Virus record (IMG/VR): IMGVR_UViG_3300010883_011338
Coordinates: 1-30,184 of that record
Reading direction: 5' to 3' (one strand)
Length of the DNA: 30,184 nt
Source: a virus
The translations under genes were made by a program, and so were the position numbers. The stretch's first letter is position 1; the number at the start of each line of letters is the position of its first letter. Under the pieces are notes generated by a model, which was not told the origin of the DNA, ran no database searches, and worked only from the letters and a program-made list of their open reading frames with translations. Of this stretch, positions 11,807-28,625 are shown piece after piece.

Positions 11807-13648
11807 TTATAGGTCGTTCGCATCGATCGGAACGGTTCCGACGGTCGTCGGCGTCGTCGTTGTTACAATGTCGGACGTCGTCACGCCGTCCGCGGCGGCG
11901 TTTGGCATAGCGCCGATAATTCCTATTCCCACTCTTGTAAGTTCCTCAAGTGCCGCACGTAATCTTTCGTCCCGGTCTTTTCCGATACCTTCCAAACTAA
12001 GTTTTGTAATATCCGCTTGTGTGTGACCTTGCAACAATAACGCTTCCGTTTCCGCGCGGCTGATTCCCCTTTCGGGCGCGATTAGATTATGTCGCGCCAT
12101 TACCTTAAAAAGTTCTTCGGGATTTCCGGTCGCGGCGGCGTCCTTTATATCGTCGCGGATTGCGTCGGTCCGTTCCCACTCTTCCCTAGAACTACGGGGC
12201 GAAAATTTATGTATCCCAAGCGCGCGACTTTCTTCGCCTTCCAAAAGACGTCGCGCCAAATGTTCCGTCACTTGCGCCCGTCCGAATTCTTTAATTTCTT
12301 CCCCGCTTCGGTCTTGTCTAACGTCTTGCCATCTTCGTATCCTATGACGTTGGCCAAGAAACCCCAGCGAGTCGCCTTCGAAGGATGATATTTTATGCGT
12401 CTTTCGAAGGGATTCTATTTCCGCCATAGCCCTCGCGCGGATACCTTCCCGCGTCATATCTTCGAACGTTTCGGATTCCTCCGCGAGTTGTTCCTGTAAA
12501 GAAAGCTGGGCAGCGGCGGCCGGTGCAGTTTTTAAAAATTTTTCTTGGAAGTCGTCCCCAACATCAGAATCGGGGCGGGTATCGGTGATCGCCGTCATTG
12601 TTTCTTGAAATCGACCCAATTTCGCGACTAACTGTTGTATTAGACCGACCGCCGCAATATCGCCGCCGCCTTCGGACAGTGCTTTAATGACCGCGCCAGG
12701 GTTTTCGAATTCGTCCGCGCGAATGCGTTCGACTATATTTACAAGTCGGTCCAAACCGTTGTCCCCGACCATTTGGATTTCTTTCCCGTCGACCTTTAAC
12801 GGGCGCGTCATCATTCGCGTAAGCAACCCCGAAACAGTCGACGCCGTCGGCTTGCCGGTTACGTCCCCGGTTTCAGCGGTTCCGAAGGCGAATAACGACA
12901 ATAGTTCCGTCAGCGTGTTACCCGTCGCCACGCCTTCCGCGCCCGTTAACCTTATCATTGCGGCGGACAGTTCCGAAATGTCGCCCCCAGCGCGCGACCC
13001 CGCGAAAAGCATTGTTTTAAACGCTTGGTCTATAGTTAATTCCCCGCCTTGACGTTGCGCGGATTCCTGTAATTTAATCGCCATTCCGGCGAACGACGCC
13101 ATATCGATATCGGGGTCGAGTGCCTTTAATTTCGCCGCGGTTCTAATTGCCTGCATTTGTGATTCGGGCGAAGCGCCAGGGGTTTGTCCGCGAAGGGCCA
13201 TAAGGGCGGAAAATGCAGCCGCGCCCCCCCCCGCCCCTAACGGTTTTCCGGCTTCGCGCGCGTCTGCCTTAAATTTGGAAATATCCGCCGCGGACGTTTG
13301 CGGGTTGTTAACGATAAATTTCGCGACAACGGAGTTTAGTGTCGCTTGCGCCGTGAACGCGCCCGTATCGATCGCCTTCAAGCGATCGAATTCGGTTCGG
13401 ATTAATCGAACGGACGCGGCGATCGCCGCCGCCGCCGTTCCAATCCCGACCAGCGATCCGCCAACCTTGGAAAATCCCGACAGCATAGACGACGACGCCG
13501 CTTTCCCGTCGCGCCCGGTCTTTTTCATTGCGCGACTAACCCCCGCAGCCTCTAACGCGACTTTCCGTTCCGCCGCCGATAATCGCAATAAGGAGTCCGC
13601 CGCCGCCTTCGCGCCGGGGGTGGAAACTTGGATTTTAATCTTCGCCAA
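11807..13648 (-). CDS. Tail tape-measure protein
   Basis: 613 residues from a TTG at 13648, the only start that fits: the frame has a TGA just upstream and the run GGTGGGGG acts as ribosome binding site. The protein is Ala-rich, mostly helical, with a hydrophobic segment at about residues 62-80 (VGGSLVGIGTAAAAIAASV), as in tape-measure proteins. At about 0.15 nm per residue it would specify a tail of roughly 90 nm. It overlaps the upstream gene by 14 bases. A run of nine Gs lies in the coding strand near 13224. The C-terminal 200 residues are more charged and lack a peptidase motif I can see. Confidence 0.85.
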   Translation of the reverse strand: MAKIKIQVSTPGAKAAADSLLRLSAAERKVALEAAGVSRAMKKTGRDGKAASSSMLSGFSKVGGSLVGIGTAAAAIAASVRLIRTEFDRLKAIDTGAFTAQATLNSVVAKFIVNNPQTSAADISKFKADAREAGKPLGAGGGAAAFSALMALRGQTPGASPESQMQAIRTAAKLKALDPDIDMASFAGMAIKLQESAQRQGGELTIDQAFKTMLFAGSRAGGDISELSAAMIRLTGAEGVATGNTLTELLSLFAFGTAETGDVTGKPTASTVSGLLTRMMTRPLKVDGKEIQMVGDNGLDRLVNIVERIRADEFENPGAVIKALSEGGGDIAAVGLIQQLVAKLGRFQETMTAITDTRPDSDVGDDFQEKFLKTAPAAAAQLSLQEQLAEESETFEDMTREGIRARAMAEIESLRKTHKISSFEGDSLGFLGQRHRIRRWQDVRQDRSGEEIKEFGRAQVTEHLARRLLEGEESRALGIHKFSPRSSREEWERTDAIRDDIKDAAATGNPEELFKVMARHNLIAPERGISRAETEALLLQGHTQADITKLSLEGIGKDRDERLRAALEELTRVGIGIIGAMPNAAADGVTTSDIVTTTTPTTVGTVPIDANDL

Positions 13649-14546
13649 TGTTCACGCCCCCACCATTTTTACGCCAGGTCCATACGTCCCGCAAATTCGA
13701 GAACAGTGATGATCCGCCAATCAGCAAAAGAGAATTGTCGGTCCCCGTCGTCGGGTCGGTCGCCGTCGCGTCCGGAATCCATTCGCCGAATATATTTTCT
13801 TCGGGCGTAATGTCGGGCGCGACGGCATCCGAAAAAGGGTCCGCGCGCATTCCTTCGGATAGTTGCAGTAAATTATCGACGTCCACGAACGCGTGGAAAA
13901 TCTTCCCCCAGGCGTCCGCGTTTAAGCATTCAAAAACGGAAATTTCGAACGGGGTAACGTCATAGTTTAAGCAAATCACACGCGCGCAAATGTCGCGCAG
14001 TTCGTCGTCGTCGATATCGACGTCGTCCGTCCCGGTCGCGACCGTCGACAAAATGATTTCGGCGTACTTTTCAACTTGTTCGGAAAGTTGCCGCCAATCT
14101 TCCGCGACGCGTTTTTTCCAGCGACATTTATTCGCCTTTTCGTCCCAGGCGAAAAATTCGGTTCTTTCTAGGGAACAAGTTGGAAGAAGTGGGTTGGCGA
14201 CGGGTATCCGCCAAACCTTACCGTCGCCAAGTTCGACGTCGTATCCGCCGGGTAAAAACTGCGGACGCGCGACGTCGTCGGGGCCGCAGACATTAAACGT
14301 CCCAATCCAAACGCCGTCGTCGACCCGGACCCAATTCTGTAGACCGGCGGCATACCGTAACGCGCCGTATTGGACTTCCGGCGTCCCGGCAAAAGGCGAC
14401 GCCAATAACCCGGACCCCGTTCCCGGTCCGTCGGAATTGCGCGCAATCATGCGGCGTTCGAAACGCCAATCCCAACCATCCGGAATGTCGTTCGCCCCGG
14501 AAAACCAATAAAGGACCGGAAGCGGTTTCGCGACAAGGTCGGACAT
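13635..14546 (-). CDS. Tail assembly protein in the chaperone position
   Basis: 303 residues from ATG 14546, which overlaps the tail-tube stop by one base; CAGGTTTCATA precedes it. The N-terminal half is beta-rich (VLYWFSGANDIPDGWDWRFE); the C-terminal half is acidic and helical (DDVDIDDDELRDICARVICL). It occupies the slot between tail tube and tape measure, where most siphoviruses carry assembly chaperones, but it is longer than lambda gpG. I see no programmed frameshift or second chaperone. It might join a chaperone to another domain. Family not recognised. Confidence 0.6.
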   Translation of the reverse strand: MSDLVAKPLPVLYWFSGANDIPDGWDWRFERRMIARNSDGPGTGSGLLASPFAGTPEVQYGALRYAAGLQNWVRVDDGVWIGTFNVCGPDDVARPQFLPGGYDVELGDGKVWRIPVANPLLPTCSLERTEFFAWDEKANKCRWKKRVAEDWRQLSEQVEKYAEIILSTVATGTDDVDIDDDELRDICARVICLNYDVTPFEISVFECLNADAWGKIFHAFVDVDNLLQLSEGMRADPFSDAVAPDITPEENIFGEWIPDATATDPTTGTDNSLLLIGGSSLFSNLRDVWTWRKNGGGVNIGED

Positions 14547-15334
14547 TATGAAACCTGGTCGAATGTTATCGACGTCCGCGCGCCGTCGAGTCCGCGTAGG
14601 ATATGACAGTTACCCAAAACGACGTCGAACGTCGCGGACGCGTTAACATCGGTGATTCGCAACGTTACCGACGCTTCCGTTCCGCCTTCGATTCCGTCTT
14701 TCGTTAGAAAATCCCCGTCCAATAGTCGCGCGGACCCCGACAGGTTAAGCGCCGAATAATACAGATAAGACGGTTTGTGGACCCCGTCGTCTTCGACGGT
14801 GTGTGTCCAACTAACGTCGGCGGATTCGACCGCGGTGATTGTGTCGCCCCCAAGGATTATATGTGTTATGTAATACGCCTTCGTCAATGTCGCCGCCGAC
14901 GCGGACGCAACGCCAACCGTGCAGGAATTACCCCCGGCGAAGGTTGCTTCGAATTTACATTGTAACTTTGCGGCGGTTTGTCGATCTGCGGTTAGGCGGA
15001 CCGGATATATTACCCCTTGCGGAAAGGACACAGATTTGTAGGTCGACGAAAACCCGCCCTGTTGTTCGTAAGCGCGGTGGTATACGTCGACTTTTGTCGT
15101 TCCCAACCCCGCGCCGACTTCGGTCCACGCGGTGACGATCGACGGGTCCGAAAAAGTAACGTCGACCGTCGGACGGTTCGCGACGACTTGTCGAAGGTCT
15201 TTATTGAGCGCCGCGCCCGACTGCAAATCGTCGAACCTATGGTCGCCGCCGATCGCAACCGAATCAGCTTCGAAACCTTGCGAAGTTGTCCCCAGCAAAA
15301 ACGCCCAAGGCGCGTATGTCGTTGTTGCAGCCAT
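14546..15334 (-). CDS. Major tail tube protein
   Basis: 262 residues from ATG 15334, with GGGGGA twelve bases upstream. It is a beta-rich, Ala/Thr/Gly-rich protein without charged clusters, beginning MAATTTYAPWAFLLGTTSQG. A second beta domain near the C-terminus (about 205-262) is consistent with tail-tube proteins that carry an added decoration domain. Its place between tail completion and tape-measure genes supports the call. No sheath gene is present, so the tail is probably non-contractile. Confidence 0.78.
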   Translation of the reverse strand: MAATTTYAPWAFLLGTTSQGFEADSVAIGGDHRFDDLQSGAALNKDLRQVVANRPTVDVTFSDPSIVTAWTEVGAGLGTTKVDVYHRAYEQQGGFSSTYKSVSFPQGVIYPVRLTADRQTAAKLQCKFEATFAGGNSCTVGVASASAATLTKAYYITHIILGGDTITAVESADVSWTHTVEDDGVHKPSYLYYSALNLSGSARLLDGDFLTKDGIEGGTEASVTLRITDVNASATFDVVLGNCHILRGLDGARTSITFDQVS

Positions 15335-15349
15335 TCGTTCACTGTCCCC

Positions 15350-15895
15350 CTAACGCTTCCGCGTTTTTGTGTTTGCGTATACTTTTATTGCTTTATCCGC
15401 GACCTTCGCGAAAACCGTTCCTTCGTCGCGACGGATAACTTCCAACGCGGCGCGTTTGTTGGCGACGCCTTCCGGTGAAACTATATACCAGGGGACCGTT
15501 AACAGCATTTTACGCGCGTTTAGCGATCCCGCGAACGTCGCGTGTTGTAGCAAAACCATTTGGCGCATTATCCCCGAATCTACCAAAGGTAACAACCGGT
15601 TCGGATTCGCGCGACGTTGGTCGAATTCGGATTGTATATCGCGCCGCAGTTGTTCCCATTCGGACCGGGGCGTCGATTCGAACCGCGCCCGAATCGCCGC
15701 GGCGCGGTGCGCGGACGCCGCGGTCGACGTCGGCGTTTTTTGATACTGTAACGGGTAAAGAGTGAACGCGCGCGGGGTAAAATGCCGGGGCATAAATCGC
15801 CGACGGTGATTGACCAGCGCGGAATCTATCGCCTTCCTCATTTCCTTTTTCGCGCCGCGAAGGTTCGGGCCGGTGTATTGGTAGACCAACGCCAT
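15350..15895 (-). CDS. Head-tail junction / tail completion protein with PRHF motif
   Basis: 181 residues from ATG 15895, which overlaps the upstream stop as TAATG. The motif RRRFMPRHFTPRAFTLYPLQ followed by PLVDSGIMRQM is found in a widespread phage family encoded at head-tail junctions, often gp10- or minor-tail-Z-like in position. The protein is basic and mostly helical. It lies between the tail terminator-like gene and the tail tube, so a role in completing or attaching the tail is likely. Confidence 0.65.
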   Translation of the reverse strand: MALVYQYTGPNLRGAKKEMRKAIDSALVNHRRRFMPRHFTPRAFTLYPLQYQKTPTSTAASAHRAAAIRARFESTPRSEWEQLRRDIQSEFDQRRANPNRLLPLVDSGIMRQMVLLQHATFAGSLNARKMLLTVPWYIVSPEGVANKRAALEVIRRDEGTVFAKVADKAIKVYANTKTRKR

Positions 15896-16389
15896 TATTC
15901 GGATTTCCGGGAGTTGTTCAATACAAACGCGCGGACGTATGTCGGCAGGGTCGACGGTCGCCACTGGTGCGGTAATTCTTCTTCTGTGATTTGGGCGACC
16001 CCGGTAATTTCGAACGCGGATTCCGTCGATAGCATATCCGACAAAATATCGTGCAGTGAATTGTCAAATGTGACCGCGCGTTCCTCGTCTTGTTCGGCGA
16101 CGACCGCGAAAAAGGCGATCGGGATATCGATCGACAGTTCGTCGACGTAGGACGCAATTCCCAACCCCGGACCCGACCGTCCGCCGAATTCGATAATCGG
16201 GTGTCCAATAGCGGCATAAGTCGTCTGTAAATTGTCGTCGAAATTTATAGTGTACGCGTGTATATACGCCTTCGCGGTCGGCGCGGACCCGGTCCCGGTC
16301 CACGTTTGGAACGCGTCGGTTCCGGCGACCAATGTCCGCAGTCGATCGACATTTAAGGACCATAGTCCCGAAGGGGCCGGGATCGGCAT
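15895..16389 (-). CDS. Tail terminator-like protein
   Basis: 164 residues from ATG 16389 with GGGGGGAACTGAT upstream. Mixed alpha/beta structure with a central IDIPIAFFAVVAEQDEERAV strand pair and a C-terminal VRAFVLNN strand, in line with tail terminator proteins (lambda gpU type). Its position just before the tail completion and tube genes supports this. The family is inferred from position and fold pattern, not from a signature motif. Confidence 0.6.
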   Translation of the reverse strand: MPIPAPSGLWSLNVDRLRTLVAGTDAFQTWTGTGSAPTAKAYIHAYTINFDDNLQTTYAAIGHPIIEFGGRSGPGLGIASYVDELSIDIPIAFFAVVAEQDEERAVTFDNSLHDILSDMLSTESAFEITGVAQITEEELPHQWRPSTLPTYVRAFVLNNSRKSE

Positions 16390-16390
16390 A

Positions 16391-16741
16391 TCAGTTCCCC
16401 CCTATGGTTTTAATCGTCGCGACCTTGCAACGCAATTCGACGACGCCGTCCGCGTCGTCGACCGAAGTAATTTCGACGACCTTCGAATCGGAAACGCGGG
16501 TTATTCGCCCCCGGATTCGCGCGACGGATAGGTCCGCCAGTTTCGCAAATACTGTGAAATCTTCAATCGTAACGACGCCGAAACGATCGACCGCGCCTTC
16601 GGACGCGCGGTCGATAAAAACCCCGCTAAATTCGACGGTCGAACCGGCAACGCCGGACGGCGGATCGTATTCCAGGGCGACAGCCCAATCGTCGACGATA
16701 ACCGTCGAATCGTCCGCAAGGTATGTTGCAAAAGTTGCCAT
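16391..16741 (-). CDS. Head-tail connector / attachment protein
   Basis: 116 residues from ATG 16741. The T-tract of an intrinsic terminator ends directly at this ATG, and there is no separate ribosome binding site, so initiation must depend on read-through or an unusual mechanism. The protein is a small beta barrel type (SGVFIDRASEGAVDRFGVVT, later RIRGRITRVSDSKVVEITSV), like lambda FII-type head-tail attachment proteins. It is the first gene after the decoration protein and so begins the tail-connector group. Confidence 0.62.
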   Translation of the reverse strand: MATFATYLADDSTVIVDDWAVALEYDPPSGVAGSTVEFSGVFIDRASEGAVDRFGVVTIEDFTVFAKLADLSVARIRGRITRVSDSKVVEITSVDDADGVVELRCKVATIKTIGGN

Positions 16742-16814: not shown

Positions 16815-17147
16815 CTACATCAAGTTAAGAGACAGGGAACCGGTTGTCGCGCCAGCAATTTCGACGCTTGTCGATCGACCCGCCAACGTATTCCCGGACG
16901 ACGTCGTCGTAAATTTCGACGTCGAATCCTTCCAATAGATCGCGGTCCCCTGGTCCCAGGTTTCGCCGGTTGTTTTTGCAACATCCTTAAAACGCCCCAG
17001 TACCATAACCGGACCCGTTGCGGACGCGGCGATATCGTTAACCGCGCAACCAATAACGCCGGAGATTTTCACAAAATCCCCCGACGAAACCGCAGTTACG
17101 CCGTTAATGTAATCGAATGTGTCGCCGGATTTTTCGTAGTTTTTCAT
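16815..17147 (-). CDS. Capsid decoration/stabilisation protein (DUF2190-like)
   Basis: 110 residues from ATG 17147, with GGGGGAATCCGTAAC upstream. The pattern GDTFDYINGVTAVSSGDFVK followed by a Gly-Val-Ile-Gly segment, a GPVMVLGRFKDVAK strand and an AIYWKDSTSKFT strand fits the small beta barrels of DUF2190, often found next to major capsid genes as decoration or stabilising proteins. It follows the protease-capsid fusion by 33 bases and precedes a terminator. Copy number per virion should be high if it decorates the capsid. Confidence 0.75.
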   Translation of the reverse strand: MKNYEKSGDTFDYINGVTAVSSGDFVKISGVIGCAVNDIAASATGPVMVLGRFKDVAKTTGETWDQGTAIYWKDSTSKFTTTSSGNTLAGRSTSVEIAGATTGSLSLNLM

Positions 17148-17180: not shown

Positions 17181-19358
17181 TTAATTAACGTGCTTCGCAG
17201 CGCCGCGATAATCGATCGCCGCCGCGGCGACGTCGCCAGCGACCTTGAAACGAACGCCGTCGACGGCGAATCCGGTTTCTTGTTCCAGCCGCGGGGCGTC
17301 GTTGCCGTCCAGGAAACGGACTTCGACGACCGGCGCGTCCGACGGATTCGCGAATGCAAAGGTAAGATTTGCAGCCGCCCCCGTTAGCGTCGTATTTTCG
17401 ATTTCCGGTTCGGCGACCAGCGTTATCCCCATTTGGGCAATATCGACCGCGCGATTGTTGTCGGCGCGGTCGGTTTCCGCCAACGCTTGAATGTAATAGT
17501 TCTTCAAGGTCGGACCCGTGACGATAACCGCAGGCGACAGGTTCAAATAAGACGCGCCGTCGACGTCCGTTTGTTGCATCATAAGCAATTCAAGCGCCCG
17601 AATAACCGCTTCGGCGGTCGCCTTTGTCGTTACCGCAGTCGTTGCCGCGTCTAGGTTATTGTGCGACGCGTGGAACAGCGCGACCGTGTCCGTTAGTGCC
17701 GAATTCGACAATAGGACTTGGACCGCGAGTTGGTTAATAGTCCGCGCCCAGGCGCGCCCATGCATTGTCGGAATACGATCGAATGCGGACAGGTCGTCGT
17801 TAACGATTGCCTGTCGCGTTATCGAAAGAATTTTTCCGTAGGTCTTTAACTGGATTGATTCCTTTTCTTCGCTTGCCGCGTAGGCTGGGAATTCCGCGCC
17901 TTCGGGGACTTCGGACATAACCCCGGATTCGGACAGCGCCGCAACGCTTGCCGTTTTGAAGTCCGACGCCGAACCGCGCGCGGTCCAGGTCGACCATTGA
18001 ACCGGGGAACTATCATACGCGGCCCGAAGTGTTTTCGCGATTGAATTTTCCAGGATATACGGAAAGTCGCCCGTCGCAGTAAAAGCGCGACCAACAATTT
18101 CCTGTCGCGATCCGGTCGTCGATAGACCGGCATTCCGGACGCAGGATTCCGCAAGGTCGAACAGCGAACGACAATCGACTTTAGCGGCGCGGTGTTCGTC
18201 TTCGTCGGACAGGGTCCGCCCGGTACGCTTTTGGATTTTCGCGATCATGTTCGCGCGACGGTGATCCGCTTCGTCTACGCGGATCGTTGCCGACGGTTTG
18301 TCGTTGGTCGCCAGGACGTCCAACATTTTGGCGCGAGCGACGTCGACGGTTACGTCGGACGAAACGCATTCGTCGCGGACCGTCGCCATTCCCGGCATTG
18401 TGTCGAACGGCGCGAACGCGGCGCGAATGTCGCGGATTCGACCGCGTTCGTCGGCGACTGCGGCGTTTTTGATTGCGCCGGTATCGATAACCGCAGCCGT
18501 CGGAAGTGCCGGTGTCGTTTCGGTTTGATCGTTAGCCGCGCGGAAGGTTACAACGTCCGCGGGGGACATATCCGGATCAATTCCCGCGCCGGTCGCGAAG
18601 GCGCGCGCCAGGTCGCCCGAAAAAGATTCGTCCATGCCGTTGTCGGTTAAAAGTTTGTGAACGTTTGCGTTCATTTTTTCGCCCCTTTGTTTTTGCTTTT
18701 GGTGTTGGTTGTCTGTTTTGTGTGCGCGCAGTTGCGCGTCAATGTCTGCCTGTATAGGCGTTAAGGACGCTTCAAATAGCGTCCAAGTCTTAGCGATCCG
18801 CAACGGTACGTCCCCGGCGGAAAATTCCCGACCGGCAATCGTCGCCGATTCGCCGGGTTCGACGAATGAGATTGCGCGTTCTTCGTATCCGATAGAAACC
18901 CCGGACAGGTGTCCTTCGGTTACCAGGGTCCACGCGTCGTCGGCGGTCGTCGAAAACGTAATCCGCCCGATAAGTTGGTCCCCGAAGACCCGGATATGAT
19001 CGACCGACCCTAATTGGAATTCGGTTCCTTCGGACTTGTGCGAATTCAGCAAGGGGACGCGGCCCCCGGCGGCGGCAACGCGGGACAGGTCGACGCCGGA
19101 CATAATAGTTAAATCGTCGACAGGTTCCCAGCGCGTCGAATCGAACATTCGGACCGCGCGTTCGGTCGCCAGGACCGCGTCGACGGTTCGCGTTTCAGTG
19201 TCCAACGTGGACGGACGCAACGGCGCGTCCGCGCGGTAATTTAAAACCCCGACGGCGTCGGCGGTTCGCGCCGGGACGACATGAATCGTCGCGGTTTGTT
19301 TCGCGCGCGCAATCTGTCGGCGACGGGCGCGACGTTTTTCGGATTTGGTTTTCGGCAT
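17181..19358 (-). CDS. Prohead protease fused to HK97-fold major capsid protein
   Basis: 725 residues from ATG 19358 with GGGGGAACAA upstream. Residues 1-20 are Lys/Arg-rich. Residues about 35-210 are an HK97-type (S78) prohead protease: LLNSHKSEG gives the catalytic His107, and HLSGVSIGYE gives the nucleophile, Ser155 (Ser152 less likely). Residues 229-725 are a full-length major capsid protein: an N-terminal scaffold-like region, then FPYILENSIAKTLRAAYDSS, ILSITRQAIVNDDLSAFDRI and VRFLDGNDAPRLEQETGF, as in Mu-like and related capsid proteins. The join at 211-228 is Gln/Lys-rich. An internal ATG with its own ribosome binding site lies at the start of the capsid part, so the capsid protein is probably also made alone. 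Confidence 0.85.
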   Translation of the reverse strand: MPKTKSEKRRARRRQIARAKQTATIHVVPARTADAVGVLNYRADAPLRPSTLDTETRTVDAVLATERAVRMFDSTRWEPVDDLTIMSGVDLSRVAAAGGRVPLLNSHKSEGTEFQLGSVDHIRVFGDQLIGRITFSTTADDAWTLVTEGHLSGVSIGYEERAISFVEPGESATIAGREFSAGDVPLRIAKTWTLFEASLTPIQADIDAQLRAHKTDNQHQKQKQRGEKMNANVHKLLTDNGMDESFSGDLARAFATGAGIDPDMSPADVVTFRAANDQTETTPALPTAAVIDTGAIKNAAVADERGRIRDIRAAFAPFDTMPGMATVRDECVSSDVTVDVARAKMLDVLATNDKPSATIRVDEADHRRANMIAKIQKRTGRTLSDEDEHRAAKVDCRSLFDLAESCVRNAGLSTTGSRQEIVGRAFTATGDFPYILENSIAKTLRAAYDSSPVQWSTWTARGSASDFKTASVAALSESGVMSEVPEGAEFPAYAASEEKESIQLKTYGKILSITRQAIVNDDLSAFDRIPTMHGRAWARTINQLAVQVLLSNSALTDTVALFHASHNNLDAATTAVTTKATAEAVIRALELLMMQQTDVDGASYLNLSPAVIVTGPTLKNYYIQALAETDRADNNRAVDIAQMGITLVAEPEIENTTLTGAAANLTFAFANPSDAPVVEVRFLDGNDAPRLEQETGFAVDGVRFKVAGDVAAAAIDYRGAAKHVN
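18672..18689 (-). promoter_or_regulatory. Internal ribosome binding site and start for the capsid domain
   Basis: On the coding strand AAAGGGGC lies six bases before an in-frame ATG (18674-18672, Met229). It sits exactly at the join between protease and capsid parts. Starting here gives a 497-residue capsid protein. Comparable nested genes are known for lambda C/Nu3 and Mu I/Z; here the direct evidence is the motif and its placement. Confidence 0.72.
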
Positions 19359-19370
19359 TTGTTCCCCCGT

Positions 19371-20948
19371 TTAACTAATTAGACGCAACGCTTCGTCCGC
19401 GCGTTGTTCTTCTTCGGTATCGTCCGCGATTATTACGGTGGCGTCCGGGTCGATGCCCTGTAACTTCGGGTGGACGCTCAAGTCGAGCGCCGACGCGAAG
19501 TCGATTTCGTCGCGGACTTGTTCCAGGTATTCGCGCCAGTTGCCCCCCTTACTTTCGACTTGTTCCTTTATTGTCGAAATCCCGTTGTCTATCGCCATAA
19601 TCGCGGCGCGCGTGTCTTGCAAAGGATTAACCCCGCCAATCGATCGGGGTCGCGAATACGCCGCCGCGTAGGGATAAGCCGCCGCGGGGGGTTGGGGGAT
19701 TGCGCCGACGGCGATCGCGGAGTCGATAAATTCCCGGTGGACAGGACGGGACAAACGATTAACCGCGAACGAATGCGTCCAGTCTAGGCGGCGGCGCGTG
19801 TTTTGGTCCGATAATCGACCCCCGGCGAAATTTGTCCGTTCGTAATCGCCGGACAATCGTTCGTAGGAAATGCCGATTCCGATAGCGATCGACCGCAGGA
19901 CAAGACGCGTTAACGCGTCCAGGTCGTTAGATTGGGACGGGTTGTGCGAATGTACTTCGCCTTCCCCGGCGTTGTGGATCGCGCCCGGTTCCAGGAATCC
20001 CAAAACGTCCCCCGCCGCGTTCGTCGAATCCGCCCCGGACGCGACCGCGTTTCCGATTAGCGAAGGCGTCCGCGCGCCGGGTTTCCGACTGATAACAAGC
20101 GCAATCGCTTGTTGTACCTTGCGCGATACAAGCGCGTATTCTTTGACTTCGCGCAAATAGGAAAGGTCCGGGATTATCGGCGCGAACCATGTAATCCCCC
20201 GAAACATTCCGGGCATATCCATTCTAAACGAATGAATCATATCCGCCGCCGGTATGCGTTGGATTTTCGTCCGCGCCAATCCCGTTTCTACATGATAGGC
20301 GACGCGGCGTCCGGTCTTGTCGAATTCGATTCCCGAAATTACGTCGTTACCGGACGCGGGGGTCGAACGATATTCCGCCAGTTGTGCGGGTTGGATGAAT
20401 TCGTAGGCCAAGGGCAAAACGCGACGACCCGCGCGGAAGTCGTCGACCAGTTGTCGACGGTGTAAAAACGCTTCCCCTTCGACGACGACTTCCGAAAACC
20501 ATAGCGCCGACATTTCGTCAAAACCGACCGCCCCGGTCGCGTCCGCTTCGTCGTTCCAGCGGTCCCGCAAATCGCCGACCGCGGCGTTTTGTAATTGATT
20601 CGCAGTTGTCGACGTCGGGTCCGAACCGGACCGATAAGATATTTTCGGGGCGACCGTGATCCCAGTTCCGACCGTCCCGTCGACTAAGGCATTCGCGGCG
20701 GCGCGCGCGTATGCGTCGTTAGCCACAAGCCAGCGCGCGCGTTGGGCGGACTTCCGTCCGTCGGATTCGAAAATATCGTGATTCGACGACGTCGCGATTT
20801 TACCCCAGCCGCCCGTTAATCGATTATCGACGGCGGAGTCCAGGTAGCGCCGGAAATTTATCCGCGACGACGCGCGTTTGTGGACCGTGTCGACAAACCC
20901 CAGGCGTAAAAGTAGCCGGTCGAATCGGGTTAAGTCGGCGGTCGTCAT
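19371..20948 (-). CDS. Portal protein (lambda gpB family)
   Basis: 525 residues from ATG 20948, one base after the upstream gpW-like stop; a longer frame starts inside that gene. Landmarks of lambda-type portals are clear: an N-terminal helix, RARWLVANDAYARAAANALV followed by DGTVGTGITVAP, the FLHRRQLVDD segment, SFRMDMPGMFRGITWFAPII, and the LSGDYERTNFAGGRLSDQN element. It forms the dodecameric channel through which DNA enters the head and docks the terminase. It lies just before the protease-capsid gene, with 12 bases between. Confidence 0.92.
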   Translation of the reverse strand: MTTADLTRFDRLLLRLGFVDTVHKRASSRINFRRYLDSAVDNRLTGGWGKIATSSNHDIFESDGRKSAQRARWLVANDAYARAAANALVDGTVGTGITVAPKISYRSGSDPTSTTANQLQNAAVGDLRDRWNDEADATGAVGFDEMSALWFSEVVVEGEAFLHRRQLVDDFRAGRRVLPLAYEFIQPAQLAEYRSTPASGNDVISGIEFDKTGRRVAYHVETGLARTKIQRIPAADMIHSFRMDMPGMFRGITWFAPIIPDLSYLREVKEYALVSRKVQQAIALVISRKPGARTPSLIGNAVASGADSTNAAGDVLGFLEPGAIHNAGEGEVHSHNPSQSNDLDALTRLVLRSIAIGIGISYERLSGDYERTNFAGGRLSDQNTRRRLDWTHSFAVNRLSRPVHREFIDSAIAVGAIPQPPAAAYPYAAAYSRPRSIGGVNPLQDTRAAIMAIDNGISTIKEQVESKGGNWREYLEQVRDEIDFASALDLSVHPKLQGIDPDATVIIADDTEEEQRADEALRLIS

Positions 20949-20949
20949 A

Positions 20950-21222
20950 TCATGCACTGATCCCGCGCGTCGAAACAAGGTAAGTCCCGCCGGACGCGGC
21001 GTCGGTTAGTTCGTCGATTCTAAGTTGTAGTTCTTCTTCGGCGTCCAGTAATGACGAATATTCCTTCGACATTGGTCCGAAGTCTTGATAGGTCGTCGAC
21101 GCCACACCAAAACCGCGACTATATGATTTTAGTCGAATCATTTTCGGGTATTCGACTTCAATTTCCGCGATTCGCGCTTGGACCTTCGCCAGTTTCGCGG
21201 ACAGGATGTCGGACAATGCCAT
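20950..21222 (-). CDS. gpW-like head-tail joining protein
   Basis: 90 residues from ATG 21222; the frame is open 14 codons further upstream but this start is better placed after GGATTGTACGGA. It begins with a helical region with heptad character (LSAKLAKVQARIAEIEVEYP), then a loop with SYSRGFGVASTTYQDFGPMS, and a second helix LLDAEEELQLRIDEL. This helix-loop-helix with a Ser/Thr-rich loop resembles phage gpW-like joiners that follow the portal site in the connector. It is the first gene after the terminator at 21310-21351. Confidence 0.66.
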   Translation of the reverse strand: MALSDILSAKLAKVQARIAEIEVEYPKMIRLKSYSRGFGVASTTYQDFGPMSKEYSSLLDAEEELQLRIDELTDAASGGTYLVSTRGISA

Positions 21223-21300
21223 TCCGTACAATCCGACCGGATTCCCGGATCGCCAGTTCCGCAAGGTCGAATGTTTTCGCGTTGCGAAATATTCCCGCGG

Positions 21301-23806: not shown

Positions 23807-24382
23807 TCAAAATGTGACGACCTTACACTGGTAACCGCGCCCCGTCATTTCGTCGAACAGTGCGCGTTGTTGCGTTTCGGAATCGACCGCGATTTCCACC
23901 GAATACGATAGCGCCGGGGGGTCCGGGTCCGGGTCCGGGTCCGGTCCAGGTGCGACGATTTCCAGCAACGCGGCATATTCCACCGGGTCGAAACCGGCGG
24001 ACGCCAATTCGCCGACATCGAAGTCCCGCAGGATATCGGCGACCGCCGCGTCGTCGAATTCCGACAGGTCCGTCGTCCGGTTGTCGGCGATCGCCAGCGC
24101 CGCGCGTCGCCGGTCGTCGGTCCCCAGGTCCGTCCGCCGGACCGCGATCAATTCCGACCCGTCGGAATCAATAACCCGGATCGGAATCCCAAGGTCCGTT
24201 GCTTGTTCGACCGCGCAATTCCCCGCGATTATAACGTCGTCGTTATCTAATAATACCGATCGACCCGCGCCGGAGTCGCGCAACGACGCCCGTACCGCGG
24301 ATTTGTTTCGGTCGGAATGCGTTCGCGCGTTGCGCGGGTCCGGCGTCGGGGGCGTCGTCATGGTCTTTTTCCGGGGGGGCAT
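23807..24382 (-). CDS. Stand-alone ParB-like domain protein (paralogue)
   Basis: 191 residues from ATG 24382, overlapping the upstream methyltransferase stop as TAATG; AAGGAAGG lies upstream. Residues about 12-140 nearly repeat the N-terminal domain of the preceding fusion protein, including SLRDSGAGRSVLLDNDDVII and the AGNCAVEQATDLG motif of phage ParB-like proteins. A run of PDPDPDPDPP links to a different C-terminal domain (SYSVEIAVDSETQQRALFDE to a CKVVTF end), which fits a small domain seen at the end of other phage ParB-like proteins. Its role may be to regulate or complement the fused methyltransferase. It is not a segregation ParB on this evidence. Confidence 0.82.
   Translation of the reverse strand: MPPRKKTMTTPPTPDPRNARTHSDRNKSAVRASLRDSGAGRSVLLDNDDVIIAGNCAVEQATDLGIPIRVIDSDGSELIAVRRTDLGTDDRRRAALAIADNRTTDLSEFDDAAVADILRDFDVGELASAGFDPVEYAALLEIVAPGPDPDPDPDPPALSYSVEIAVDSETQQRALFDEMTGRGYQCKVVTF
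23961..24350. repeat. ParB-domain duplication, copy in stand-alone gene
   Basis: These 390 bases match 25181-25570 at a constant offset of 1,220 with no gap. Most differences are single bases, and most leave the protein unchanged, pointing to a fairly recent duplication kept under selection. Confidence 0.95.
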
Positions 24383-25596
24383 TATTTACCTTCCTTTGTT
24401 GCGGTGTTTCCGGTGAACTCTTCCCAGCGTTTTATAATGACGTCGCAGTAATGCGGGTCGATTTCCATTCCGAAACATTTCCGATCGGTCTTTTCGCAAC
24501 CGACCAATGTCGCACCGGAACCTAGAAAGGGGTCGACGACATTGGTCCCCTTATACCGATCGAAAAACCATAGAACTAAACGCACGGGCTTTTGCGTCGG
24601 GTGCAATCTCTTCTGATCGAATTCCGAGTCCATTCCGAACATTCCCGCCCATTTTATCCGCGCTATATCGCGTTTATGTTTCTTTTTAGACCAACATAAT
24701 TCGAAACAACTTCCATACATTTTGTCCGCGCTTTCCGTTAACCGTTTATCCCAAACAACCCAAGCGCCCCCCGGCGGCAAATGGTCGGAATAGTAGTCGC
24801 AACCGAACCAAAACTGTTCGTCGCAATACTGAAAATAGTCGAAGAAAAAGGTCGGGTCGAACGGACTATCGTCGCCGATTACATTGTCGTATTTGTTGCC
24901 GCCCTTATGATAGCTCCGTTCACCGTTGCGGGGAAGTCGCGACTTCATTCCGCTGAAATCGGCGTCTAAATTCATTCCGTAGGGGGGGTCTGTAAAAACG
25001 ATATCCGCCTTCCGTCCGTCCATAAGTCGATCGATGTCGTCGCGATCTGTCGCGTCGCCGCATAATAACCGGTGTCCGCCCAACAACCATAAATCGCCGC
25101 GGACGACGGTCGGGGTTTCAGTCGATTCCGGGACGTCGTCGTCGTCGATTAACCCGACCTTCGGGTCCGGGTCGACGGTTTCCAATAACGCGGCATATTC
25201 CACCGGGTCGAACCCCGCCGACGCCAGTTCATCCGGGGCGAAGTCCCGCAGGATATCGGCGACGACCGCGTCGTCGAATTCCGAAAGGTCCGTCGTCCGG
25301 TTGTCTGCGATCGCCAGCGCCGCGCGTCGCCGGTCGTCGGTCCCCAGGTCCGTCCGCCGGACCGCGATTAGTTCCGACCCGTCGGAATCAATAACCCGGA
25401 TTGGAATCCCCAGGTCCGTTGCCTGTTCGACCGCACAATTCCCCGCGATTATAACGTCGTCGTTATCCAACAATACCGATCGACCCGCGCCGGAGTCGCG
25501 CAACGACGCCCGGACGGCGGATTTGTTTCGGTCGGAGTGTCGTCGGGCGTTACGCGGGTCCGGCGTCGGGGTCGTTAGCTTTTTTTTCCGGGGCAT
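24382..25596 (-). CDS. ParB-like domain fused to beta-class DNA methyltransferase
   Basis: 404 residues from ATG 25596 (TAATG overlap; AAGGGGGGCAAATA upstream). Residues 12-140 are a phage ParB-like domain (GAGRSVLLDNDDVIIAGN). Residues 165-404 are a methyltransferase: a VRGDLWLLGGHRLLCGDATD start, DIVFTDPPYGM at 199-208 (catalytic motif IV), HPTQKPVRLVLWFF, and VVDPFLGSGATLVGCE at 353-368 (AdoMet-binding motif I). Motif IV before motif I makes it a beta-class N6-adenine or N4-cytosine enzyme. Such fusions are common in phages and are thought to modify phage DNA against host restriction. Target sequence unknown. Confidence 0.92.
   Translation of the reverse strand: MPRKKKLTTPTPDPRNARRHSDRNKSAVRASLRDSGAGRSVLLDNDDVIIAGNCAVEQATDLGIPIRVIDSDGSELIAVRRTDLGTDDRRRAALAIADNRTTDLSEFDDAVVADILRDFAPDELASAGFDPVEYAALLETVDPDPKVGLIDDDDVPESTETPTVVRGDLWLLGGHRLLCGDATDRDDIDRLMDGRKADIVFTDPPYGMNLDADFSGMKSRLPRNGERSYHKGGNKYDNVIGDDSPFDPTFFFDYFQYCDEQFWFGCDYYSDHLPPGGAWVVWDKRLTESADKMYGSCFELCWSKKKHKRDIARIKWAGMFGMDSEFDQKRLHPTQKPVRLVLWFFDRYKGTNVVDPFLGSGATLVGCEKTDRKCFGMEIDPHYCDVIIKRWEEFTGNTATKEGK
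25181..25570. repeat. ParB-domain duplication, copy in methyltransferase fusion
   Basis: Partner of 23961-24350, offset 1,220 bases. It covers most of the ParB-like domain. Confidence 0.95.
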
Positions 25597-26010: not shown

Positions 26011-27930
26011 TTAGCGTTTCGTCTGTTTGCCGGTGAACGGATTAATCATTACTGGCGACCGCGGCGTTTCCGCGACCGGCGCGTCCGGTAACGACGGGTC
26101 CGGCGGCGGTTCCGGTTGTGTCTGTTGCTCTTGTTCCCAGTATGCCGCAACGTCGAAAACGTCGCGCATTATTATTTGCATTTTCTCGCAGTCTAACGCG
26201 TGATTGTGTCGCGCGACTTGTTGCCATTTCGTCGAAAGTTGGTTGCCTTTTTCGATTGTTATTCGTTGTTCCGCGATCATTTGTTGGCAATATTCCGCCG
26301 ATATTTTTTCTTCCAACCCCATATATCCGGGCGCGCCGGGGGTAACGCGTAGCCAGGACGCGAATTTATCCATATATTGTTGGTGATTATATGCGAGGCT
26401 TTGCAGCGCCCCCTCTAAATTCCGCCCCGACGCGGGGTCCGGCGTTACGATTTTCGTCGTCCATCGATATAATTCCCGTAAAGTATCCGTTCCGAATGCA
26501 GGGTAGGCGCGACCTTCCCATTTCATACACCACTGCAAGACCTCTTGTGTTCGATATCGTCCGTCGATCATTGCCATATCGACGCCGATTTTCCGGTCGT
26601 CGTCGGCGCCGATTGTCCAAGTCCGATTCATTAACGGATCGAGCGAATCCAGTTCGGCGCGGACCGTTCCTTCTTCGATTCCGAACGACGTTGTATCGGT
26701 CGCCCAGGCGCGAAGGCGATAACGAATGTTGGCGTCGTGGACGTCGGCGGTTAAGAAGACAAACCGAACGGACGACGGGACGGTCCCGGCCAAGTGTCCG
26801 GGGATAATATGCGAACGGATTCCGCCGACGTCGATCGGATCGGTTACGCGGACTTCGTAAGGAACCGCACAATCGGAATTCAAAAAGTCTTGTCGGTCGT
26901 CTTCGCTTTTTTCGGCCGCGTCCATTTTAACCGCCAGGTCGCCAATAGTCGACCATTGCGAACAAATCGAAGGCAGCCAACAACCGTACCCCGAAGCGTC
27001 CGGAAACCGCGCGCGCCATTCCCCCAGCGCGACCGCGTCGTTTAGTTGTTGATCGGTCCAGCGCGCGACGCAATCGGCGACCGAACATTCAAAATACGCC
27101 GCCGACGAGATCGATTCCGGATCGGTCGCGTCCGGGTCGAAATGTACCCCCCCGGCCCCGCAGTTGTCAACGTCGAACCAACGCGCGACTTCCGCCGACG
27201 GGTACGGGACTTGGAAAACGCCGCAGTCCGGGCAGGGTATCCAATATTGGTTTTGGGTCGACGTCGAAAATTGCTTCCAACCCGCCTTGGATTCCGTTAC
27301 GGGGGTCGTCGTTATTAACCCGCGCGCCGCGTTTTCGTAAGTCCGCGTCCGTCGCCAGGACAAGTTAACCGGGTCGGTTTCGTCGCCGGACGACTTGGGA
27401 AATTTCGCAGCTTCGTCTAAAAACAAATATCGAATCGCTTCCGCCGCCAACATCGTAGGCGACCCCGCCCAGGCTAATTTAATAGAACAAGACTTTAACC
27501 GGAAATAGTGTTTTTGGAGGTCGAACCGGCGCCCGGTAAGTTGGGCCGACATACAGTCTTCAATCATTGGGCGCAAATGGTCCGTAGATCGGCGGTCGCA
27601 CGTCGTCATATTAGGGTAAACAATCAACGTCGGACCCGGACGCGTCGCGGCGTTATATGCCATTATTGCTTGTAAGCCCAAGGTCTTCCCGCATTGCGCG
27701 CCGAAAATCCAAACGTTTTCACGATAGCGACGATACCCCCAAAGGGGGCCGCCAACCCCCCGCATATACGGCGAATGCGTCCAATCTAACTTCCCCGGTC
27801 GCGCCGTGACGCGGTCCGATAAGGTAATATTCTTTTCCGCCCAATCGTATACTTCCAGGTCGGGAGGGGGCGACAGCATTTCCGCCGCAGTGTCCACAAT
27901 CGCCGCGACTTTTTGGGCGGTTCGGATCAT
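26011..27930 (-). CDS. Large terminase subunit (lambda GpA family)
   Basis: 639 residues from ATG 27930, overlapping the small terminase stop as ATGA. The ATPase half has Walker A at residues 76-83 (FGAQCGKT) and Walker B at 168-176 (YLFLDEAAK), with the typical entry YDWAEKNITLSDRVTARPGK. A CPDCG zinc-like segment near residue 235 (YWIPCPDCGVFQVPYPSAEV) is characteristic of GpA-type terminases. The C-terminal half contains the nuclease domain (ADVHDANIRYRLRAWATDTT and IGVDMAMIDGRYRTQEVLQW). It packages DNA into the prohead through the portal and cuts it at the end. GpA-type enzymes often make cohesive ends. Confidence 0.92.
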   Translation of the reverse strand: MIRTAQKVAAIVDTAAEMLSPPPDLEVYDWAEKNITLSDRVTARPGKLDWTHSPYMRGVGGPLWGYRRYRENVWIFGAQCGKTLGLQAIMAYNAATRPGPTLIVYPNMTTCDRRSTDHLRPMIEDCMSAQLTGRRFDLQKHYFRLKSCSIKLAWAGSPTMLAAEAIRYLFLDEAAKFPKSSGDETDPVNLSWRRTRTYENAARGLITTTPVTESKAGWKQFSTSTQNQYWIPCPDCGVFQVPYPSAEVARWFDVDNCGAGGVHFDPDATDPESISSAAYFECSVADCVARWTDQQLNDAVALGEWRARFPDASGYGCWLPSICSQWSTIGDLAVKMDAAEKSEDDRQDFLNSDCAVPYEVRVTDPIDVGGIRSHIIPGHLAGTVPSSVRFVFLTADVHDANIRYRLRAWATDTTSFGIEEGTVRAELDSLDPLMNRTWTIGADDDRKIGVDMAMIDGRYRTQEVLQWCMKWEGRAYPAFGTDTLRELYRWTTKIVTPDPASGRNLEGALQSLAYNHQQYMDKFASWLRVTPGAPGYMGLEEKISAEYCQQMIAEQRITIEKGNQLSTKWQQVARHNHALDCEKMQIIMRDVFDVAAYWEQEQQTQPEPPPDPSLPDAPVAETPRSPVMINPFTGKQTKR

Positions 27931-28625
27931 TCGTCCCGCCCGTCGTTATCGGCGTCCCGGTCGGAATAGTCGCGCGACGGGGGCGACAGTAGTTCCGCGA
28001 CGCCGTCGCGCATTCGTTCGCGCATTCGCCGAACCGCCGTCCGAATACGGTCGCGGACGTAATCCGCGGGGCGGTCGGCTAATTGCGACGACAGGTTTTC
28101 AAACTGTTCGAGTTCCGCGATTAGTACCGCGAAAATCGATTGGACCGTTTCGATTACGTCGTCTATCGGACGATAAACGCCGCGGTCCGCGAGTATTTTC
28201 GGAAGGTCTTTTTCGAGTCTGCGAATCCGTTCGACCGTGTCCAGCCAATTCGCTTGATAGACGCGTTGTTCCCCCGCCCCGGCGCGGTCTTGGACAGCGC
28301 GCGCCCACTGCGAGTATTGGACCCGTTGCGCTTGTTTCATCCGAAACAAAATCATTTCGATATCGTCCGTTTCGGGGACCGGCGTCGCGGACGTTTCGAC
28401 CGTCGGCGCGACCGTCGCCGGTGCCGGTTTCGGGATCGTCGCGGCGACCCGCGCGATTGCGCGCGAACCGCGTTCGTTAGTCATAATCCAAGCCCGGACC
28501 GCGTCCAGGTCGAAGACATTCGTCCAACCGTTCGACGCTTTCGTAAACGGAAGTCCGCGTTTTTGGAGTTGATACAGCGACGCGGCGCGGATATCCAACG
28601 CGGCGCAAATTTCGCGGGTCGTCAT
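27927..28625 (-). CDS. Small terminase subunit-like HTH protein
   Basis: 232 residues from ATG 28625. The N-terminal winged HTH (TTREICAALDIRAASLYQLQ, RGLPFTKASNGWTNVFDLDA) is of the Nu1/MerR-like type that recognises the packaging site. A Pro/Ala/Thr link (about 58-85) leads to a helical oligomerisation part (DIEMILFRMKQAQRVQYSQW) and a basic tail. It overlaps the large terminase as ATGA. The upstream sequence carries a terminator-like hairpin ending only 22 bases before this start, and no strong ribosome binding site. Confidence 0.78.
   Translation of the reverse strand: MTTREICAALDIRAASLYQLQKRGLPFTKASNGWTNVFDLDAVRAWIMTNERGSRAIARVAATIPKPAPATVAPTVETSATPVPETDDIEMILFRMKQAQRVQYSQWARAVQDRAGAGEQRVYQANWLDTVERIRRLEKDLPKILADRGVYRPIDDVIETVQSIFAVLIAELEQFENLSSQLADRPADYVRDRIRTAVRRMRERMRDGVAELLSPPSRDYSDRDADNDGRDE

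Follow-up and report, generated by a model that had tools for sequence, protein, structure and literature searches.

In phages lambda (gpC/Nu3) and Mu (gpI/gpZ), an in-frame internal start yields protease-carrying and protease-free chains, with the scaffold made from the internal start, while in herpesviruses the UL26 protease is fused to the scaffold, a shorter in-frame scaffold product (UL26.5) arises from its own transcript, and the capsid protein is separate. The capsid gene of Salmonella phage Gifsy-2 is said to be tripartite, reportedly as described by Effantin et al. in 2010 (Virology 402:355). For Pseudomonas phage MD8 / F10 gp5, one paper describes a single gene comprising protease, scaffold, and capsid and cites work on the lambda C/Nu3 overlap (PMC8508860), and another describes a protease-capsid fusion in Paracoccus prophages (PMC6536676). 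The fusion itself is thus already known, from NCBIfam, Gifsy-2, and these two sources, and a previous sequence-only reading of the locus studied here did not mention that the class is both catalogued and in print. A literature search that covered mainly papers free of subscription returned no report that fusions of protease, scaffold, and capsid, with either type of protease, share a conserved internal start. No internal start in a protease-capsid fusion is mentioned in the accessible portions of PMC8508860, PMC6536676, PMC8538268, or PMC8814770, and the word "internal" is absent from the main text of the MD8 paper (PMC8508860).

The window, i.e., the whole stretch of viral DNA that was analysed, is the 30,184-base IMG/VR record IMGVR_UViG_3300010883_011338. 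Its head module is a standard gene set on the minus strand, consisting of small terminase (27927-28625), large terminase (26011-27930), portal (19371-20978; PF05136, E 1.1e-63), the fusion, and a head decoration (cement) protein (16815-17147; PF09956, E 1.8e-19; phrog_122). The fusion gene encodes 725 residues between an ATG at 19358 and a stop at 17181, and the gap after the portal gene (19359-19370) holds CGGGGGAAC, the Shine-Dalgarno sequence (SD) of the full-length start (SD score −8.6). The sequence-only reading had the coordinates 17181-19358 and the 725-residue frame right but missed that the strand is minus. Against NCBIfam NF045541 (prohead protease/major capsid protein fusion), the protein gave an E value of 2.5e-132 with profile positions 1-630 of 634 aligned, falling short of the curated cut-off (442.6 versus 525 bits), and it also matched phrog_4523 ("major head and protease protein"; E 6.2e-135). 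Like the members of NF045541, the window gene carries an HK97/herpes-type protease and a capsid in a single frame, and on profile scores it appears to be a diverged relative beyond the curated limit.

The predicted domains and structure comparisons indicate that the long gene is protease, scaffold, and capsid rather than protease and capsid. An AlphaFold model of the 725-residue protein was built from a 60-sequence alignment (mean pLDDT 85.5), and all of its domains are given here in minus-strand coordinates. The prohead protease domain (residues about 58-200; 18759-19187) was assigned from predicted structure, VIA-align, and the invariant H107 and S155. When predicted alone with AlphaFold, the protease reached a pLDDT of 96.3 over residues 45-212, and VIA-align placed the model closest to the T4 gp21 protease (5jbl; Z 10.9, 2.5 A, 128 aligned), with herpesvirus proteases at Z up to 8.8; Foldseek alone ranked the matches to T4 gp21 and herpesvirus proteases weakly (best E 0.017). 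The His107 and Ser155 named by the sequence-only reading are indeed present, and they are invariant in 10 aligned relatives, in the 60-sequence alignment, and in a protease-only alignment of 49 (numbered H63/S111 there). With conserved His and Ser in an assemblin-like fold in the predicted structure, the window protease is predicted to be a herpesvirus/T4-gp21-like prohead protease. It scored 15.9 bits against the HK97-type prohead protease profile TIGR01543 (cut-off 59), PF04586 (S78) was not listed among the Pfam matches of the window protein, and phmmer of that protein against PDB sequences gave no matches. No ClpP-like N-terminal protease was found, NF045540 matching the window protein at residues 243-723 only. 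The protease is followed by a low-confidence linker (pLDDT <50; residues 213-229, 18672-18722) that ends at Met229 and then by a helical scaffold/delta-like region (residues about 230-417; 18108-18671), recognized from model helices at 231-409 and from alignment across fusions with different proteases. The remainder, from about residue 418 to residue 725 (17184-18107), is a major capsid domain of HK97 fold that matches PF25209 (Phage_capsid_4; E 6.8e-43, 148.3 bits versus a gathering cut-off of 27) and whose C-terminal part (about 420 to 725) matches HK97-fold shells with Z up to 16.3 (Foldseek, VIA-align).

Read along the coding strand, the join is AAAGCAAAAACAAAGGGGCGAAAAA-ATG, in which the Shine-Dalgarno-like motif AAAGGGGC (18681-18688) is followed by six bases and then by the ATG of codon 229 (18672-18674), just as the sequence-only reading had described for Met229 at 18674. 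That reading's protease-capsid fusion with a predicted internal start at the join also stands, but the internal product would not be capsid-only, residues about 230-417 being scaffold/delta-like. The gene holds 25 in-frame ATG/TTG start candidates and no GTG, and among the starts scored, from codons 151 to 420, anti-SD pairing was strongest for Met229 (−8.6, with −6.0 for the runner-up), which equals the SD score of the gene's own start at 19358. The motif contains the gene's sole AGG codon (codon 225), with AGA/AGG accounting for 1 of its 53 Arg codons and AGG for 12 of 618 Arg codons over the 25 window ORFs counted. Among 60 aligned S78-type fusions the Met229 column is at least 90% Met within an otherwise variable linker. 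G-rich SDs of the same kind also stand 5′ of other window genes (e.g., 1787-2518, 15895-16389, and 24382-25596). As a separate matter of codon usage, GAG is strongly avoided in the 25 minus-strand window ORFs counted (18 GAG versus 401 GAA), and the SD sites of those ORFs have G runs (GGGG, GGGGG) instead of GGAG.

Gifsy-2, like the window, joins a protease, a scaffold region, and a capsid protein in a single frame and has an internal ATG at the same join (Met221), which follows GAGGAG and has an SD score of −9.6; its protease is ClpP-like, whereas that of the window is S78/herpesvirus-like. MD8 likewise has a join ATG with an SD (gcaggagttcgcccacATG), and its protease, unlike that of the window, is also ClpP-like. 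In lambda and Mu the capsid protein is the product of a separate gene, whereas in the window fusion it is part of both predicted chains; the window frame continues through the capsid domain, unlike a C/Nu3-type gene, whose internal product is a scaffold without a capsid domain. The herpesvirus UL26 protease has the same fold as the window protease (as judged from the predicted structure), but the UL26.5 short form has its own transcript and the capsid is separate, unlike in the window fusion. The same join arrangement recurs in four c2-type fusions, which have a separate capsid family. L5 of Lactococcus phage c2 (NC_001706; L184:1419-2861) is a protease-delta-capsid fusion with ATG131 at the join after AAAGGAG, and a correspondingly placed ATG, likewise with an SD, occurs in LG75P1 (142), Q54 (144), and ACM616_1 (136). 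The L5 capsid belongs to PF06673/PF05065 and gave no match to the capsid profile of the window family. Because the Pfam c2 capsid model PF06673 begins exactly at L5 residue 131, the internal Met, it covers only the would-be internal-start product, and the annotated mature N-terminus of L5 (codon 206) is consistent with removal of a delta domain at 131-205.

Because a single-protein search of viral contigs returned only a near-copy (L002, 97% identical) that was useless for conservation, profile searches were adopted. The relatives collected were 8 divergent S78-type phage fusions (24-30% identity), 4 ClpP-type fusions, and the best 80 loci each from IMG/VR and GTDB, which together with L002 made up the 173 loci scanned. 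These comprised 114 S78-type fusions, 48 ClpP-type fusions, 8 loci cut at the 5′ end, 2 with a separate S78 protease, and 1 capsid gene alone. The fusion frame was open in 162 of the 165 loci having the gene's 5′ end, a ratio that is not an unbiased census because the loci are the best 80 per collection. From the 163 fusions including the window, 7 were left out for an unclear capsid start (L009, L043, L045, L110, L136, L144, and L163), among which L009, inspected by eye, has the internal site; removal of 21 near-duplicates from the other 156 left 135 (94 S78-type and 41 ClpP-type). The S78-type members of the 60-sequence alignment share 23-34% identity with the window protein. In the record of Pseudomonas phage PAN70 (L179), the fusion gene is given as disrupted by a frameshift that followed a deletion within a homopolymer.

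An ATG with an SD score of ≤ −5 was present no more than 70 codons past the protease domain in 123 of the 135 dereplicated fusions (86 of 94 S78 and 37 of 41 ClpP). The other 12 consisted of 3 with a GTG and an SD, 8 with an ATG and no SD, and 1 with none in that range (L167), which has one slightly past the 70-codon limit. GGAG, GAGG, or AGGA was found 5′ of the best join ATG in 114 of 133 cases, compared to 163 of 2028 other in-frame ATGs in the same genes, and in S78 genes the SD energy profile is sharply centred on the join ATG, at −7.2 against about −2 to −3 for most flanking positions. Control windows of the same size elsewhere in the same genes reached ≤ −5 in 29% (S78) and 34% (ClpP); Fisher p-values for these windows were set aside as evidence because the windows overlap. 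The internal start is thus conserved across very distant fusions and through protease-type exchange, as computed directly, like the domains and the start signal itself. Comparison of related phages for conservation of the internal site had been proposed with the sequence-only reading, which took a lack of such conservation as grounds for refutation, and the site is clearly conserved (123 of 135 fusions), being found in c2-type phages and Gifsy-2 as well.

Synonymous-codon shuffling left 52% of S78 shuffles at ≤ −5, compared to 86% observed, and the joins lay within the top 5% of their own shuffles in 12 of 94 S78 and 1 of 41 ClpP genes. Because the shuffles retain much of the SD, the join signal appears to reside largely in amino-acid choice (KE, EE, or GD before Met) and not in codon choice alone. 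This outcome is expected if the linker residues were themselves chosen to spell an SD, a choice that shuffling cannot prove. Choosing the first ATG past the protease fails as a rule in many ClpP-type genes, where it gave an SD score of ≤ −5 in only 25 of 41, because another Met sits closer to the domain. A best-in-window rule was additionally used and was applied alike to shuffles and control windows. A well-scoring ATG in the protease motif ETWM (Met186 in Gifsy-2; also L013 and L014) lies inside the protease domain and was regarded as a by-product of protein sequence. The Bacteroidota-linked loci (L148, L172, L174, L029, and L076) retain the join ATG and lack the SD, which is also missing from 10 of the 12 scorable downstream genes of these loci (L029 gave none); well-supported branches of the capsid tree pair L029 with L174 and L076 with L148. 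Weak joins outside this set occur in L107, whose downstream genes do have an SD, L151, and L075.

In L041 and Faecalibacterium phage Epona, the protease stop TAG lies in the SD ATATAGGAGG, with the capsid gene beginning 8-9 bases past this SD; L168 has separate protease and capsid genes with AAAAGGGGG 5′ of the capsid ATG. These boundaries indicate that fused and unfused arrangements differ little and that the internal start is the equivalent of the site where a separate scaffold-capsid gene begins. In the unfused L041 (2900-3300) and L178 (1780-1900) the stop TAG forms part of the capsid SD ATATAGGAGG, so that a single base change may be all that divides a fused from an unfused arrangement.

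A capsid tree was built by a quick method, with long branches flagged (L181, L177, L178, and L183). Its 105 capsid-domain rows were those of the window and of representatives of the ClpP-type and unfused loci, together with 50 S78 rows picked at random and a few chosen by name. Protease-type changes on this tree numbered 11 for S78 and 9 for ClpP, with well-supported (starred) branches forcing at least 7 and at least 6, respectively. In 10 S78/ClpP pairs the scaffold aligned (E 5e-10 to 4e-19) and the capsids were 54-69% identical, while the N-terminal parts had no match in 9 pairs and a chance-level match in 1. As the scaffolds and capsids align and the proteases do not, the exchange boundary lies near the linker carrying the internal start. 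On the evidence of the tree and these alignments, two unrelated proteases have repeatedly been exchanged upstream of one scaffold-capsid module. The MD8 paper suggests that the capsid is exchanged only together with the protease (PMC8508860), and the capsid tree does not support this suggestion.

We propose, with a probability of roughly 0.82, that one gene gives two in-frame products, scaffold-capsid alone and a co-assembling protease-scaffold-capsid chain that carries the protease inside. Ribosomes starting at 19358 would make the protease-scaffold-capsid chain (calculated mass 78 kDa), and those starting at Met229 (18674) would make a scaffold-capsid chain (53 kDa) equivalent to HK97 gp5; we infer that both starts are used and that long chains are outnumbered by short ones. 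Because the scaffold and capsid domains are common to both, the two chains should co-assemble, and the long chain, built into the shell lattice, would take the protease with it into the procapsid. Once there, the enzyme would cut off itself and the scaffold region, leaving a capsid domain of roughly 33 kDa. By analogy with HK97, a one-to-one fusion poses a dosage problem, as a shell needs hundreds of capsid chains and far fewer proteases, and a conserved internal start would solve it. The sequence-only reading had envisaged many capsid-only and few fusion chains. The SD scores of the window do not bear this out, being equal for the two starts (−8.6 versus −8.6), and those of 12 annotated phage relatives do so only loosely: the internal SD is stronger than the 5′ SD in 8 of them, the other 4 have an internal SD of similar or lower strength, and the annotated 5′ starts may be wrong. 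The ratio is nonetheless plausible.

We regard as unlikely an arrangement in which the internal start makes essentially all of the capsid and the upstream fusion is neutral, having come from chance loss of a stop codon. Unfused relatives with the same start do exist (L041, L168, and L178), and stop loss at TAGGAGG is a one-base event, but unfused loci are rare among the best 80 per collection (2 with a separate protease and 1 capsid alone versus 162 fused), and the fusion stays in frame when one protease fold is replaced by another. Quite unlikely, in our estimation, is that the full-length chain is the single product, with an internal ATG and SD that are coincidental or a relic of a separate capsid gene; every chain would then bring one protease that removes itself and the scaffold. 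The frame is indeed open in 162 of the 165 loci with a 5′ end (best 80 per collection), the two window starts have equal SD scores, and the codon-shuffle test is moderately significant at most per gene. A relic would decay, however, yet the site is retained in 123 of 135 fusions, persists among S78-type members with only 23-34% identity to the window protein and through protease exchange, and recurs in the c2-type family. Moreover, HK97-like proheads hold far fewer proteases than one per capsid subunit, a content that the single-product arrangement would far exceed. A lambda Nu3-like outcome, in which initiation at the internal site gives a short scaffold protein of its own instead of a scaffold-capsid chain, seems very improbable: lambda and Mu do start the scaffold at an in-frame internal site, but no stop codon separates the scaffold region from the capsid domain in the window or its fused relatives.

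The two-product arrangement may be an instance of a general rule for tailed phages, one that in our judgment could equally well hold or fail, by which every fusion of a maturation protease to the capsid protein retains a start for the capsid at the join. Under such a rule the protease would be dosed into the shell on a minority of capsid-fused chains, and unrelated protease folds would be interchangeable modules placed directly before that start. In Gag/Gag-Pol, dosing is achieved by frameshifting, and the general rule, if true, would be its bacterial counterpart, with internal initiation replacing frameshifting. The two-product arrangement makes a clear, testable prediction for cultivated phages (Gifsy-2, MD8, and Rhodobacter, Shewanella, and Lactococcus phages), and annotation would have two products to record for each such gene. 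That S78-type and ClpP-type proteases, which are unrelated in fold, have repeatedly replaced each other at the same boundary is a clean case of modular evolution, and a capsid-fused route for cargo is suggested that structural biologists could test directly.

Elsewhere in the window, a minus-strand gene for a ParB-like protein (23807-24382) adjoins one for a ParB-like/DNA methyltransferase (24382-25596, minus strand; phrog_620, phrog_498; N6_N4_Mtase). The pair (23807-25596) borders the terminase block and resembles the ParB-TerL locus described for Paracoccus phages. Among 9 head/tail-region proteins tested, 6 had no PHROG match at E 0.001 (13635-16741 and 20950-21264, minus strand), and the genes for these proteins occupy the positions expected of neck/tail genes.
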